The position numbers and the translations under genes are program-made. Shown one piece after another: positions 3,049 through 10,696 of a stretch of DNA of 12,484 nt. Positions within the stretch are counted from its first letter, which is position 1. Each line of letters opens with the position of its first letter. The notes under the pieces were generated by a model. It saw only the letters and a list, made by a program, of their open reading frames with translations. It ran no database searches and was not told the origin of the DNA. This DNA is from Candidatus Micrarchaeum sp. (GTDB taxonomy: Archaea > SpSt-1190 > DYHY01), in assembly GCA_020723935.1 (NCBI GenBank), contig DYHY01000023.1, positions 1 to 12,484 of the forward strand. The letters run 5' to 3'.

Positions 3049-3849
3049 TTATGACTGGAAGAACACCACGACCATCAGCGTCTCGTAGATCGTGCGCGCC
3101 AGCGCCGGCACCGCGACCTTCCCGCTCCTGTCGTAGAGGTAGGCGCAGGTCGCCCCGACGATCGTCCCTATCACGAAATTGAGGAAGAAGGACCCCGTCC
3201 CGAGGGCGGACCTGTAGAGGCCGAACGCAAGGGCGGAGAAGACGAGGGCCGTCCCCCGGCTCCACATAAGCGTGTTGTACGCCTCGTGCTGGACTATCCC
3301 GCGCCAGAACGACTCCTCGACGAGGGCCACGCAGAACCTGATCGCAAAGCCCACGAGGGTGAGGACCGCGAGCTGGTAGGCTGATGCCGCTATCGGGGCG
3401 GGGTTCCTGCCAAGTATGACGGCGAACACGAAGTAGTTGAGGACGAAGAGGGCGAGGGCGCTGGTGAGTATCCCGCTGTAGAACATCCCGCCCTTAGAGA
3501 AGTTGAAAGTCTCGAGGAAGTCCCAGGGCATCACGCCGAGCCTGTCCCGCCTCTTCAGGGCGCGGACCGTCAGGAAGACGAAAAGGACGATCGCCGCGTA
3601 AGCCGCCGCCCACGTCCAGGAGCTTATCATCGTGCCCAGGGGCGTCGCAGTGTATATCCCGGCGGAGACGAGCGTCTTTGAGCCCTTCCCCAGGGAGAGG
3701 AGGAGGAAGAACGCGATCAGGACTGCCGGAGGGACGAGCGTGAGGAGATAGCCCTTCTTCTCCCCCGGGGTCGGGCGCGCATGCTCCCTTGAATGCTTGA
3801 GTGCCTGCCTCTTCCTTGCCTCCTTCAACCCCTTCGGCGTTTCCGGCAT
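3049..3849 (-). CDS. CPBP-fold membrane protein, probably catalytically inactive
   Basis: This 266-residue multi-pass membrane protein has the CPBP (CAAX protease/bacteriocin-processing, ABI) fold. The first signature is intact at residues 178-184 (EESFWRG, matching E-E-x-x-x-R). The second motif, normally F-x-x-x-H, reads F209-G-L-Y-R213. The third, normally H-x-x-x-N near the end, reads R252-T-I-Y-E256. Both metal/catalytic histidines are therefore arginines and the Asn is Glu, while the spacing is preserved, which argues against a misassigned frame. Membrane spans lie at about 35-52, 78-95, 125-147, 155-176, 200-212 and 222-238. The N-terminus is basic and cytosolic-looking. GGAGAA lies about 8 bases before ATG 3849. 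It sits between a small membrane protein and PGI/PMI in a tight operon. It may be a non-proteolytic membrane scaffold. Confidence 0.82.
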   Translation of the reverse strand: MPETPKGLKEARKRQALKHSREHARPTPGEKKGYLLTLVPPAVLIAFFLLLSLGKGSKTLVSAGIYTATPLGTMISSWTWAAAYAAIVLFVFLTVRALKRRDRLGVMPWDFLETFNFSKGGMFYSGILTSALALFVLNYFVFAVILGRNPAPIAASAYQLAVLTLVGFAIRFCVALVEESFWRGIVQHEAYNTLMWSRGTALVFSALAFGLYRSALGTGSFFLNFVIGTIVGATCAYLYDRSGKVAVPALARTIYETLMVVVFFQS

Positions 3850-3902
3850 TTCGTCTTCTCCGCTTCTCCCGCGGACGGTCGCTATCGCTTCCGCTCCCGC
3901 TC

Positions 3903-4046
3903 CTACTGCTTCTTCTTGGGCTTTTCCTGCGGGCCCTCGAAGGCCACGAGCGCTATCCCCATGAAGAAGAAGATGCAGTAGACCATCACGAGGACGCCCA
4001 GGATTATGTTCTCGGGCGAGCTGAACAGGTCCGCAAACGGAGCCAT
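3903..4046 (-). CDS. Small single-span membrane protein (47 residues)
   Basis: The sequence runs from MAPFADLFSSPENIILG, through a hydrophobic helix at residues about 14-36, to a lysine-rich tail KPKKKQ. The frame could be extended upstream to 4136, but ATG 4046 is preferred. A TATA-like box on the minus strand at 4071-4080 is centred about 29 bases upstream, which predicts an essentially leaderless mRNA beginning at this ATG, and the extension is non-hydrophobic Arg/Gly-rich sequence lying over the promoter. The positive-inside rule would put the Lys tail in the cytosol. It is the first gene of the operon that continues with the CPBP-fold protein 53 bases downstream, so it may be a partner subunit. 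No family is recognised. Confidence 0.7.
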   Translation of the reverse strand: MAPFADLFSSPENIILGVLVMVYCIFFFMGIALVAFEGPQEKPKKKQ

Positions 4047-4070
4047 TGTGCGGGCATGGCTACATGGGCT

Positions 4071-4080
4071 CTTTTTATTC
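4071..4080 (-). promoter_or_regulatory. TATA box for the 47-residue protein / CPBP / PGI-PMI / GNAT operon
   Basis: The minus strand reads GAATAAAAAG, preceded by GGAAA, which resembles a BRE. Transcription about 25 bases downstream would begin near 4050, four bases before ATG 4046. Confidence 0.6.
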
Positions 4081-4139
4081 TTTCCACCCGCCCGCGTCCG
4101 CGCAGGGCCCAGAAGCGCCCGCGCGCCCCGCCCCAAGGG

Positions 4140-4146
4140 TTAAATA
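4140..4146 (+). promoter_or_regulatory. TATA box for the HIT gene
   Basis: TTAAATA sits about 33 bases upstream of ATG 4176 in the divergent promoter region. The expected start of transcription is about 4167-4170, giving a very short leader. AAGGAG at 4162-4167 has good SD spacing (8 bases) to ATG 4176 but would lie at the edge of such a transcript, so which signal operates is unclear. Confidence 0.55.
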
Positions 4147-4175
4147 GGCTAAGCTATGCCCAAGGAGCCAGGAAA

Positions 4176-4748
4176 ATGGCGGCAGCACCATCCCAGCAAC
4201 AGGCCTCTGCATCTCCGCTTCCCCCTCAGAAGCCCCCTCTCGCGGCAAGGCCGCCGCAGGCGCAGCACAGGGGCCCTGCCCAGGCCCAGGCGGCCGCCCC
4301 CTGTATCTTCTGCAAGATCGCCTCGGGCCAGTCGAAATCATACCGGGTCTACGAGGACGCCTCCTTCGTCGCGATTCTGGACGCCTTCCCGGTGACGGAG
4401 GGGCACATCCTCCTCATACCCAAGATGCACTACAAGACGTTCTTTGACATGGACGATCCGGAGCTCGCCGCGGCCTTCGCGACGACGAGGAAGCTTGCCG
4501 CCGTCCTGAGAAAGGCCTTGGGCGCCGACTCGTTCAACATCGCGACGGCCCCCTCGGCGATAGACCACTTCCACATACACCTGATGCCCCGCTACGACTA
4601 CGACCTAATGGGGCCCCTTGCGGACCTGGACAACAAGCGCGAGATGTCGGCCGACAGGATGGCCGGGATCCAGAAGAAGATCCTCGCCTTCCTCGGCGGC
4701 GGCGGCGCAGCGCCGGACGCAGCCGGGTCTGCCAAGGCGAAGGTCTAA
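4176..4748 (+). CDS. HIT-family (histidine triad) nucleotide hydrolase/transferase
   Basis: This 190-residue cytosolic protein probably hydrolyses or transfers nucleoside monophosphates from phosphoramidate or dinucleotide substrates. The HIT domain spans about 42-172, with CIFCKIASG (C43, C46; zinc-type CxxC of Hint proteins), VYEDASFVAILDAFPVTEGH (58-77) and the triad HFHIHL (131-136). The middle His133 would be the nucleophile. The residues before the triad read APSAID instead of the common AGQxVxH, so the substrate loop differs from canonical Hint. A head of about 41 residues is low-complexity (Gln, Ala, Pro), and a Gly/Ala tail follows the domain. ATG 4176 is favoured by AAGGAG 8 bases upstream and by the TATA at 4140; the frame is open further upstream but lies in promoter sequence. 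Its TAA overlaps the TAG of the convergent gene. Confidence 0.9.
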   Translation: MAAAPSQQQASASPLPPQKPPLAARPPQAQHRGPAQAQAAAPCIFCKIASGQSKSYRVYEDASFVAILDAFPVTEGHILLIPKMHYKTFFDMDDPELAAAFATTRKLAAVLRKALGADSFNIATAPSAIDHFHIHLMPRYDYDLMGPLADLDNKREMSADRMAGIQKKILAFLGGGGAAPDAAGSAKAKV

Positions 4749-5599
4749 TCGGAGAGCTCCGCTTCAATCCCGCCGACCAGTTTCGCCGCGAGATTGTACA
4801 TGATGGCCCCTACCAGCGCGATCAGGAAGCTTATCCAGGCGAGGACGGCCGGGAATAGGAGCGCGATCCCTATCAGCCCGAAGCCCTGGACGGCGGATTC
4901 CAGCCCTGGGAGGAGAGCTAAGATGACGCTCCCGAGGAGGCCGACGATCAGCCCGATGACCGCTCCGACGATGACCGCGACGACCGCCTGGATCTTCGCC
5001 GCTGAAAGGGGATCGACGGAGACAAGGACCACTTGCCTTTCTCTCCCCTTCTTCCTTTCCAGGACGAAGCCCGTCCCGCCGACAAGGCCCGCCGAGATGT
5101 TGTAGAGGAAGCTGGAGAGCGCGCCGCCGACGAAGCCGAAGACCACATGCATGAACAGGGAGAACGAGGAGGGAATGTGGAAGAAGAGCGCGAGCGCCGC
5201 CGATATGCAGCCCGTTATGAGCGACACCATCCCGTTGAACGTGGCCATGGACAGGACGCCCAGGCCCGCGAGGATGAATGATTCAGGGCGCTCTCCTCCA
5301 TTGTCTTTCTCCTTCCCCTTCACGAGAACGAGCTCTACGCCCTTCACGAGGCCCAGGGAGGCGTTGTAGATCGCCGCGAATGCGAGGCCCACTACGAACC
5401 CGATCGCGGCGCCGATCGCAGCGTAGATTAATAGGATTACCACCAAGATGGCTGCGACGTCCGAGAAGGATGTTGTGTCGGGCAGGACCGAGAACATGGC
5501 GAGGCCTGAGAAGACGGCCACCACGATTCCCATTATCCCCGTGGAAATAGCCGCGATCTTCCCGAAGGACAGGACGCCGACCTTCCTGAGAGTTGCCAT
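4745..5599 (-). CDS. Triplicated membrane protein, DUF3566-like repeats
   Basis: This is a 284-residue multi-pass membrane protein made of three related units. Each opens with a short motif (VGVLSFGKIAAI at 7-18, LGVLSMATFNGM at 113-124, VDPLSAAKIQAV at 195-206) followed by a glycine-rich helix. Each closes with a second helix ending in Tyr-Asn and an amphipathic LVGG-type segment (IYNASLGLVKGVEL 77-90, LYNISAGLVGGTGF 165-178, MYNLAAKLVGGIEA 267-280). Single-unit proteins with this opening and the YNxxAxxVGGIE ending are common small membrane proteins in archaea and bacteria and resemble DUF3566. Unit 3 is closest to that consensus and units 1-2 are diverged. Charged linkers (KGKEKDNGGERPE and ERKKGRERQ) separate the units. 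ATG 5599 fits a leaderless transcript from a TATA at 5621-5630. The function is unknown. Confidence 0.85.
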   Translation of the reverse strand: MATLRKVGVLSFGKIAAISTGIMGIVVAVFSGLAMFSVLPDTTSFSDVAAILVVILLIYAAIGAAIGFVVGLAFAAIYNASLGLVKGVELVLVKGKEKDNGGERPESFILAGLGVLSMATFNGMVSLITGCISAALALFFHIPSSFSLFMHVVFGFVGGALSSFLYNISAGLVGGTGFVLERKKGRERQVVLVSVDPLSAAKIQAVVAVIVGAVIGLIVGLLGSVILALLPGLESAVQGFGLIGIALLFPAVLAWISFLIALVGAIMYNLAAKLVGGIEAELSD

Positions 5600-9154: not shown

Positions 9155-9730
9155 ATGAAATTCGCCCAGAAGTACCCTGAGAAGCTTTCCTCCTCGCCGA
9201 TGCTCATGGCCGAGGCCCTCAAGGCGTGCGGCGCGGCCCTGGATCCGGAGCGGATCCTCGCGGCAAACGGCTCCTGGTACTATGTCCTGGACGACGGCAA
9301 GGAGGTCGTGAAGACCGCGGATTTCGAGTTCCTGCTCGTGGACGAGAAGAGCAGCCCCGTCCAGTACAACCTCTCCTGGGAAGGGGGCAAGTGGTCCAAG
9401 CCCGAGAAGAAGGACCTCGCCGAGGAGCTCGGGCAGATGAAGGAGGAGGCCGATCTCCTGAAGTCGATGGAAAAGAAGCTCCTTTCGGAGGAGGCGGCTG
9501 TCAAGGCAGTGGAGGGGAAGCTCATGGAGCTACGCAAGGGCTCGCCTCACCTGAGGATCACCCTCGTGGCCTTCTCGGTGTCCGACCAGGAATACGAGGT
9601 TCCGGCGTGGCGGGTCGAGGCGAACAACTGGCCGATAATCTCCTATTTCAAGAGCCGCGAGAAGCAGAAGTCGGCGGTCGCCGTCCTGGACGCTTTGGAC
9701 GGCAAGATCCTCTCGTTCAAGGCCGAATAG
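9155..9730 (+). CDS. Hypothetical soluble protein with central coiled coil and PepSY-like C-terminus
   Basis: This 191-residue protein is not recognised as a named family. There is no signal peptide or membrane span. Residues 1-80 form a mixed alpha/beta region (SWYYVLDDGKEVVK, then FEFLLVDEKSSPVQYNLSW). Residues about 84-127 are a charged Leu/Glu/Lys-rich segment likely to form a coiled coil. Residues 131-190 look like a compact beta domain with the phrase YEVPAWRVEANNWPII and an ending AVLDALDGKILSF. That pattern, an aromatic 'P-x-W-x-V' followed by 'vDaxxGkil', recalls PepSY-type domains, but this is a weak resemblance. ATG 9155 is supported by an upstream TATA. The codon use matches the window. 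It is followed by its own intergenic space and a new promoter, so it is probably monocistronic. Confidence 0.8.
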   Translation: MKFAQKYPEKLSSSPMLMAEALKACGAALDPERILAANGSWYYVLDDGKEVVKTADFEFLLVDEKSSPVQYNLSWEGGKWSKPEKKDLAEELGQMKEEADLLKSMEKKLLSEEAAVKAVEGKLMELRKGSPHLRITLVAFSVSDQEYEVPAWRVEANNWPIISYFKSREKQKSAVAVLDALDGKILSFKAE

Positions 9731-9835
9731 GCGCGGCCCGCCGCCGGACAGCGCCGGCAGGGACATTTTACGATTTCAGTAAATTTTACCAGAAATCTCC
9801 CCTCTAAGGTGCTTAAACCTTTCTGTAATAGTAAC

Positions 9836-9844
9836 TTTTATAAG
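9836..9844 (+). promoter_or_regulatory. TATA box for the 275-residue orphan
   Basis: CTTTTATAA is centred about 28 bases before ATG 9869, predicting transcription start at or just before the ATG. This decides the start: GTG 9809, which would add 20 residues, lies upstream of the box. Confidence 0.65.
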
Positions 9845-9868
9845 CCGGAGTGTCTTTCCAGTGCAGGT

Positions 9869-10696
9869 ATGGAATCGAACCTCACCCTCGTCGCGAGGGA
9901 TGCAGTTTTGGCAGAGTTGAACGGGAAATATCGACAGGTAGTTCATAAGCACACTCCGGGTCTTCTGGCGCCCCTGGTGGCCGCGGTCCCCGTCGACGAG
10001 ACGGCCGCGACTTGGGGGGATGTGTTAGAGCAGCTGGACGGCGTCCTTGAGACCAGCACCACCTATAGGGGGGCGGTCAAGCAACTCGCGTGCATGAGGA
10101 AGCTGATATCCCAGATCGCCAACCTCGAGGAGGAGTCAAAAGACCCGCTCGCGGCCAGCGTCGTCGCGTACTACAACGCGGGCGGCCCAATCGACAAGTT
10201 CAATAAGTTACTGAGCGACTACAACGACACGCAGATGACACAACAATACACCGGCAGGGAGCGCTTCATGTGCGGCGAGTGCGCTCCGGTCAACCAGACG
10301 ATCGAGAGAGTCCTGAATATATTGGCGATGGTCGCCCTCACTGTCGCGACGGGCGAGATGAGCGAAGATGTCGCGGACGGGTATAAGAGGTGTGTGGACC
10401 GCTACCTCCTCGACATGGGCAGTCCCCCGGGGCTCACGGGCGGTGAGCTCATCAATGCCCTCGAGACAAGGCGCAATACGCTCAAGTCGATGCCCGCGCA
10501 GGTGGGAGCTCCCACGTACGACGAGCTGGTCACCGTCGTGCGGGACGTGACGAATGGGCTACCCCCCTATGCGAATGTCGTGGCGGTGATCCCCCCTTCC
10601 TATAGCGTGGCGTCCCAGATAGAGTGGGTGCTGGGCGGCGACACATTCGGCAGCGGAAACGGGTTCATAGTAATAGAGCCGAGCGAATCGTCCTAG
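9869..10696 (+). CDS. Orphan hypothetical protein, 275 residues
   Basis: I do not recognise this protein. It looks soluble and mostly helical, with a CxxC pair at 135-138 (MCGECAP) and one mildly hydrophobic helix at about 148-160. A C-terminal portion (about 215-275) has alternating hydrophobic residues and ends in GSGNGFIVIEPSESS, perhaps a beta region. The start is ATG 9869, based on a TATA 28 bases upstream and a leaderless mRNA; the reading frame extends to GTG 9809 but would include the promoter. The early part of the gene uses more A/T-ending codons (TTG, TTA, CTA, CAT, ATA) than its neighbours, which could mean later acquisition. It is flanked by its own promoter and a strong terminator, so it forms an independent unit. 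Confidence 0.75.
   Translation: MESNLTLVARDAVLAELNGKYRQVVHKHTPGLLAPLVAAVPVDETAATWGDVLEQLDGVLETSTTYRGAVKQLACMRKLISQIANLEEESKDPLAASVVAYYNAGGPIDKFNKLLSDYNDTQMTQQYTGRERFMCGECAPVNQTIERVLNILAMVALTVATGEMSEDVADGYKRCVDRYLLDMGSPPGLTGGELINALETRRNTLKSMPAQVGAPTYDELVTVVRDVTNGLPPYANVVAVIPPSYSVASQIEWVLGGDTFGSGNGFIVIEPSESS

Follow-up and report, generated by a model that had tools for sequence, protein, structure and literature searches.

The window, by which we mean the whole 12,484-nucleotide stretch of the Candidatus Micrarchaeum contig that was analysed, carries a gene for a 284-residue membrane protein, which starts with an ATG at 5599 and ends with a stop codon at 4745-4747 on the minus strand. The protein consists of three related two-helix units joined by charged linkers. 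The gene closes a same-strand run that begins with a ribonucleotide reductase (RNR) gene, and it meets a HIT-domain gene tail to tail; none of the neighbouring genes names a partner for the protein. The features are as follows.

3801-4748, convergent with the three-unit gene: HIT-domain gene, overlapping it tail to tail by 4 bases
4745-5599, minus strand: three-unit DUF3566 membrane protein gene, 284 aa (open reading frame list and Pfam)
4748-5029, minus strand: unit 3, residues 191-284 (unit HMM, 54.2 bits)
5030-5056, minus strand: charged linker 2, residues 182-190, RKKGRERQV, predicted cytosolic (charge count)
5057-5263, minus strand: unit 2, residues 113-181 (unit HMM; frame residues 130-198)
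5264-5323, minus strand: charged linker 1, residues 93-112, VKGKEKDNGGERPESFILAG, predicted cytosolic (charge count and pLDDT)
5324-5599, minus strand: unit 1, residues 1-92 (unit HMM, 26.7 bits over residues 3-92)
6322-5651, minus strand: corrinoid adenosyltransferase, between the RNR gene and the three-unit gene
8963-6417, minus strand: RNR, probably class II, in the same-strand run
9155-9730 and 9809-10696: two open reading frames, 191 and 295 aa long, neither of them matched confidently in Pfam or NCBIfam

A Pfam-A scan of the protein returns a single family, DUF3566 (PF12089), at 33.4 bits against a gathering cut-off of 22.2, and places it on three stretches; the NCBIfam scan gave no match. 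The likeness to DUF3566 lies in the two-helix unit itself, in a Ser-x-x-Lys start, and in a Tyr-Asn-...-Gly-Gly end; the difference is that the bacterial members we retrieved have one unit and the window protein three, a single unit being usual for the family but no part of how Pfam defines it. The motifs described in the earlier note are present in each unit, L-S followed by K (T in unit 2) at the opening and Y-N...G-G (K-G in unit 1) at the close. Unit 1 opens with GVLSFGK and closes with YNASLGLVKGVEL. Unit 2 is the most diverged, having a short inter-helix loop, Thr for the opening Lys, and the closing sequence YNISAGLVGG. Unit 3 is the most canonical, with the motifs DPLSAAK...YNLAAKLVGGIEAEL, and is closest to the actinobacterial protein CofA (56-65% identity across ~25 aa). 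The losses from the motif in the window protein are the Lys of unit 2 and the first Gly of unit 1.

Similarity between membrane helices is inflated, and hydrophobic helices might resemble one another by chance with no true repeat behind them. To avoid circularity we left out the window sequence and built a first unit HMM only on single-unit proteins from other organisms, 17 in all, of which 13 were archaeal and 4 actinobacterial. Scored singly, units 1, 2 and 3 reach 31.3, 27.8 and 58.7 bits; unit 2 is found as two fragments, residues 113-139 (6.0 bits) and 150-178 (19.8 bits). Each real unit scores above the maximum of 1,000 block shuffles that preserve its local hydropathy profile (22.3, 16.5 and 20.9 bits), and a second unit HMM, likewise made without the window rows, finds exactly three units in the protein. 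Direct alignment gives scores that are matched by 2 of 1,000 block shuffles for units 1 and 2, by 0 of 1,000 for units 1 and 3, and by 6 of 1,000 for units 2 and 3. Units 2 and 3 align poorly—their best local path runs partly out of register—and their kinship rests mainly on the family profile. The identical three-unit layout is, however, seen again in dozens of genomes, and this census together with the shuffle-controlled profile scores already refutes chance likeness, to which we give next to no credence.

The window gene encodes three diverged copies of a DUF3566 hairpin. The earlier note had read the protein as a triplicated DUF3566-like two-helix unit, and the triplication is real: Pfam marks three stretches, the independent profile with its shuffles finds three units, and structural models give three hairpins. 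The boundaries it proposed (residues 7-90, 113-178 and 195-280) are correct to within a few residues, and no known non-repetitive family covers the full length in Pfam, NCBIfam or PHROGs.

The full-length AlphaFold2 model, built on 12 sequences, is modest in quality (pLDDT 63, pTM 0.46) and too weak to show how the hairpins are placed relative to one another. Its helices span residues 9-38/45-84, 109-139/144-173 and 197-228/233-275, forming three hairpins whose boundaries agree with those from the profiles; a model of unit 3 by itself reproduces its hairpin with a pLDDT of 82. The region of linker 1 (residues 85-111) has a pLDDT <50, and linker 2 is flanked by modelled strands at 178-181 and 189-192. 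Lys and Arg number 3, 5 and 6 in the segments that hold the N-terminus and the linkers, and 0 in the short inter-helix loops of units 1 and 2. By this positive-inside count an N-in/C-in topology is predicted, with all three hairpins pointing in the same direction and the charged linkers in the cytosol, where they had also been placed before. Comparisons with known structures gave little: Foldseek found no match with E below 0.49 for the full model against the PDB, and VIA-align of unit 3 gave Z <=7 on helical hairpins, with no single member prominent. An MBH subunit in the PDB has a 25-residue match to the unit profile (E 0.005), which we put down to composition.

The motif residues are largely retained across the family. 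The Asn that closes helix 2 occurs in 53/53 single units and in 53/54 units of three-unit proteins, and at each of the three positions most units retain the other motif residues, from which it follows that all three units are under constraint and that two of them have not decayed into spacers.

Relatives are numerous in archaea. Profile searches covered about 700 archaeal genomes altogether. A whole-protein search of 197 archaeal genomes found single-unit open reading frames of ~95-140 aa in many and multi-unit frames in few. With a 25-unit profile the family is present in 98/394 archaeal genomes, in 59/196 from the phylum that includes G346 and G135, in 6/19 from the one that includes G039 and G059, and in 82/151 of the class of G113; the tested members of this last class carry methyl-coenzyme M reductase (mcrA) and are therefore methanogens. 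A single-protein scan of genome contigs gave no match. A viral origin was considered and set aside, as the viral contigs searched hold no relative of the three-unit protein.

Units were then counted with the second unit HMM, without window sequences, in the open frames of loci L058-L160 and the window. In the 109 unit-bearing frames examined, one unit was counted in 64, three in 41, two in 3 and four or more in none. These counts overstate independence because many loci are related and because two collections each supplied a few of the one-unit loci. Four loci with weak profile matches (L071, L072, L074, L075) resemble other membrane proteins and were excluded as evidence for the family; the frames of L071 nevertheless pass the second profile and are among the 64. 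The two-unit frames are those of L069, whose N-terminal part is long, L137, which is partial, and L143, which ends at a contig edge. By family the tally is 7 three-unit against 2 two-unit (p = 0.09 if the two were equally likely, not significant alone), which means that few independent lineages stand behind the scarcity of two-unit forms.

Three-unit proteins are 265-350 aa long and occur in the window's sister genus, in two other small-genome archaeal groups and throughout the mcrA-bearing methanogen class; they fall into seven family-level groups (f1, which holds the window and G001, f9, f28, f30, f36, f39 and f79). The methanogen relatives in f36 and f79 share the three units, at 280-330 aa, as the main form in their class, but they differ in that the opening Lys is often missing, and in several members of both groups purB adjoins the three-unit gene. 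Of the archaeal three-unit proteins that were scanned, most score under the Pfam cut-off, and most fall short of those of NCBIfam; two methanogen three-unit proteins of ordinary length have no Pfam or NCBIfam family. The single unit is the usual form, as had been supposed—it is the ordinary bacterial form and is frequent in archaea too. The accompanying remark that no three-unit version had been described stands for the literature on DUF3566 that we searched, although such proteins are common in archaeal genomes. The three-unit form of this known family is thus widespread in archaea and apparently undescribed.

Several loci have arrangements of their own. L070 (G295:C1:65896-67818) holds five consecutive single-unit DUF3566-like frames, all on the same strand; four are intact, and the match of the fifth includes a TAG. 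The row is possibly a stage before fusion, or possibly a set of different subunits. The protein at L141:3043-4560 (G575) has three units and a C-terminal tail of ~200 aa, nearly all charged or polar. L069:1-1578 (minus strand; G002, from the class of the window genome) is a 526-aa frame in which acidic N-terminal repeats precede two DUF3566-like units. The three-unit gene at L062:5106-5959 (G346) seems to be split, with the N-terminal half of unit 1 lying upstream in another frame (66 aa), which may reflect a frameshift or an assembly error.

Kinship within the family can be followed in part. Used as a query, unit 3 finds four actinobacterial DUF3566 genes and seven archaeal ones. Alignments of three-unit and single-unit archaeal proteins match in hhalign at 99.2% probability, and archaeal single units match actinobacterial units at 97.4% over 26 columns only, those of the C-terminal motif. 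A tree of 54 units is unresolved, with one starred branch; in part of f9 and among the methanogens the first units of different proteins group together, so these groups probably inherited one triplication.

The only characterised relative is CofA, a PBP1a cofactor (Cgp_0016 in Corynebacterium glutamicum; Rv0007 in mycobacteria). In C. glutamicum it is a protein of 114 aa with two transmembrane helices in N-in/C-in topology, which interacts with itself and binds the transmembrane helix of PBP1a; accumulation of PBP1a at the pole requires CofA (PMC7205459). Its unit is homologous to those of the window protein, and its self-interaction fits an assembly of several units, in line with the presumption of the earlier note that single units associate as oligomers (PMC7205459). 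CofA differs, however, in being a single unit that stabilises a peptidoglycan synthase, whereas the window protein has three units and a genome without such a synthase: neither the transglycosylase family PF00912 nor the transpeptidase family PF00905 has a match in the window genome (91% complete), and both match in 10 control bacteria. The partner of the window protein is therefore not a PBP of a known kind, and CofA's own partner cannot be carried over to it. The gene settings differ as well; the CofA gene lies downstream of a DNA gyrase gene, close to the replication origin, whereas the window gene adjoins adenosyltransferase, RNR and HIT genes, with no DNA gyrase among the window genes scanned.

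We propose that the protein is a fused pseudo-trimeric membrane scaffold, in which three tandem CofA-type hairpins, arranged with pseudo-threefold symmetry, would bind a partner; we put the probability of this reading at about 0.5. Each hairpin would start and end at the cytosolic side, and because each enters and leaves there, the three would have the same orientation. They would most likely pack as a six-helix pseudo-threefold bundle, standing in for a homotrimer of single units. In every unit the conserved residues, Ser and Lys where helix 1 begins and Tyr-Asn and Gly-Gly where helix 2 ends, would lie at the cytosolic membrane surface. By analogy with CofA, the bundle may act as a scaffold or chaperone that binds a partner's transmembrane segment, stabilising and positioning the partner. 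We infer the trimer, its cytosolic side and its partner-binding role, moving from three units to a ring and, by analogy, from likeness to CofA to a scaffold. Parallel hairpins can pack round a common axis, and three is the recurring unit number; the census (41 three-unit, 3 two-unit and no four-unit frames) lends the idea indirect support, and the one-or-three pattern in archaea points to a ring of three as the working form.

The alternatives share the three units and differ in what the units build. Small membrane proteins are often channels, and three equivalent hairpins could enclose a central path; the earlier note offered a pseudo-trimeric channel, alongside a scaffold or a membrane-shaping protein. 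The helices, however, are nearly without charged residues (1.6% in the window protein, 0.4% in single units), have few polar residues, and are rich in Gly—a composition that suits tight packing, not an aqueous pore—and the conserved residues sit at the predicted cytosolic helix ends and are not spread along the helices. We know of no conductance for CofA. An aqueous channel is thus disfavoured, and we regard a channel or pore as improbable. A less remote alternative, though still on the unlikely side, is that the tandem units form no closed ring and serve as a multivalent tether for up to three partner helices or several complexes, or as a curvature-inducing patch. The charged, flexible linkers (pLDDT <50), the long charged or polar tail of the methanogen homologue at L141, and the five adjoining single-unit genes of L070 would all fit such an open arrangement, but it leaves the consistent number three unexplained.

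The neighbourhood offers another reading, in which the protein is an accessory of cobalamin-dependent ribonucleotide reduction or of nucleotide metabolism. RNR, adenosyltransferase and the three-unit gene form a run on one strand in the window, and RNR genes lie within 6 kb in 4/18 three-unit lineages and near none of the single-unit loci (Fisher p = 0.005). RNR was chosen post hoc, however; P-type ATPases are equally frequent nearby (4/18 lineages), 14/18 three-unit lineages have no RNR nearby, and RNR classes and gene orders vary between lineages. We therefore give this linkage little weight and hold an accessory role to be very unlikely; RNR/HIT linkage as a clue to function went from 4/8 loci at first to 4/18 in the larger set and was judged weak. 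The pair of RNR and corrinoid adenosyltransferase recurs in L061, near another three-unit gene. A HIT gene directly adjoins the three-unit gene in L133 and L135 as it does in the window, but its orientation varies.

The pseudo-trimeric scaffold may extend beyond the window. We suggest, tentatively and with somewhat less confidence than for the window protein, that DUF3566 hairpins work as trimers across archaea and Actinobacteria, and that archaea fused three of them, either in several lineages or in one early ancestor. If this is true, threefold membrane scaffolds would form an archaeal family, so far unrecognised, that runs across methanogens and small-genome archaea, and the stoichiometry of the CofA family would be fixed. 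CofA aids cell wall building in corynebacteria and probably in mycobacteria; natural three-unit fusions, constant at three across wide distances, point to a trimer, and they would provide a one-chain form open to structure determination or to mutation unit by unit. The range of a wall-associated bacterial family would also come to include archaea that lack peptidoglycan, in which its partner must be a different one.
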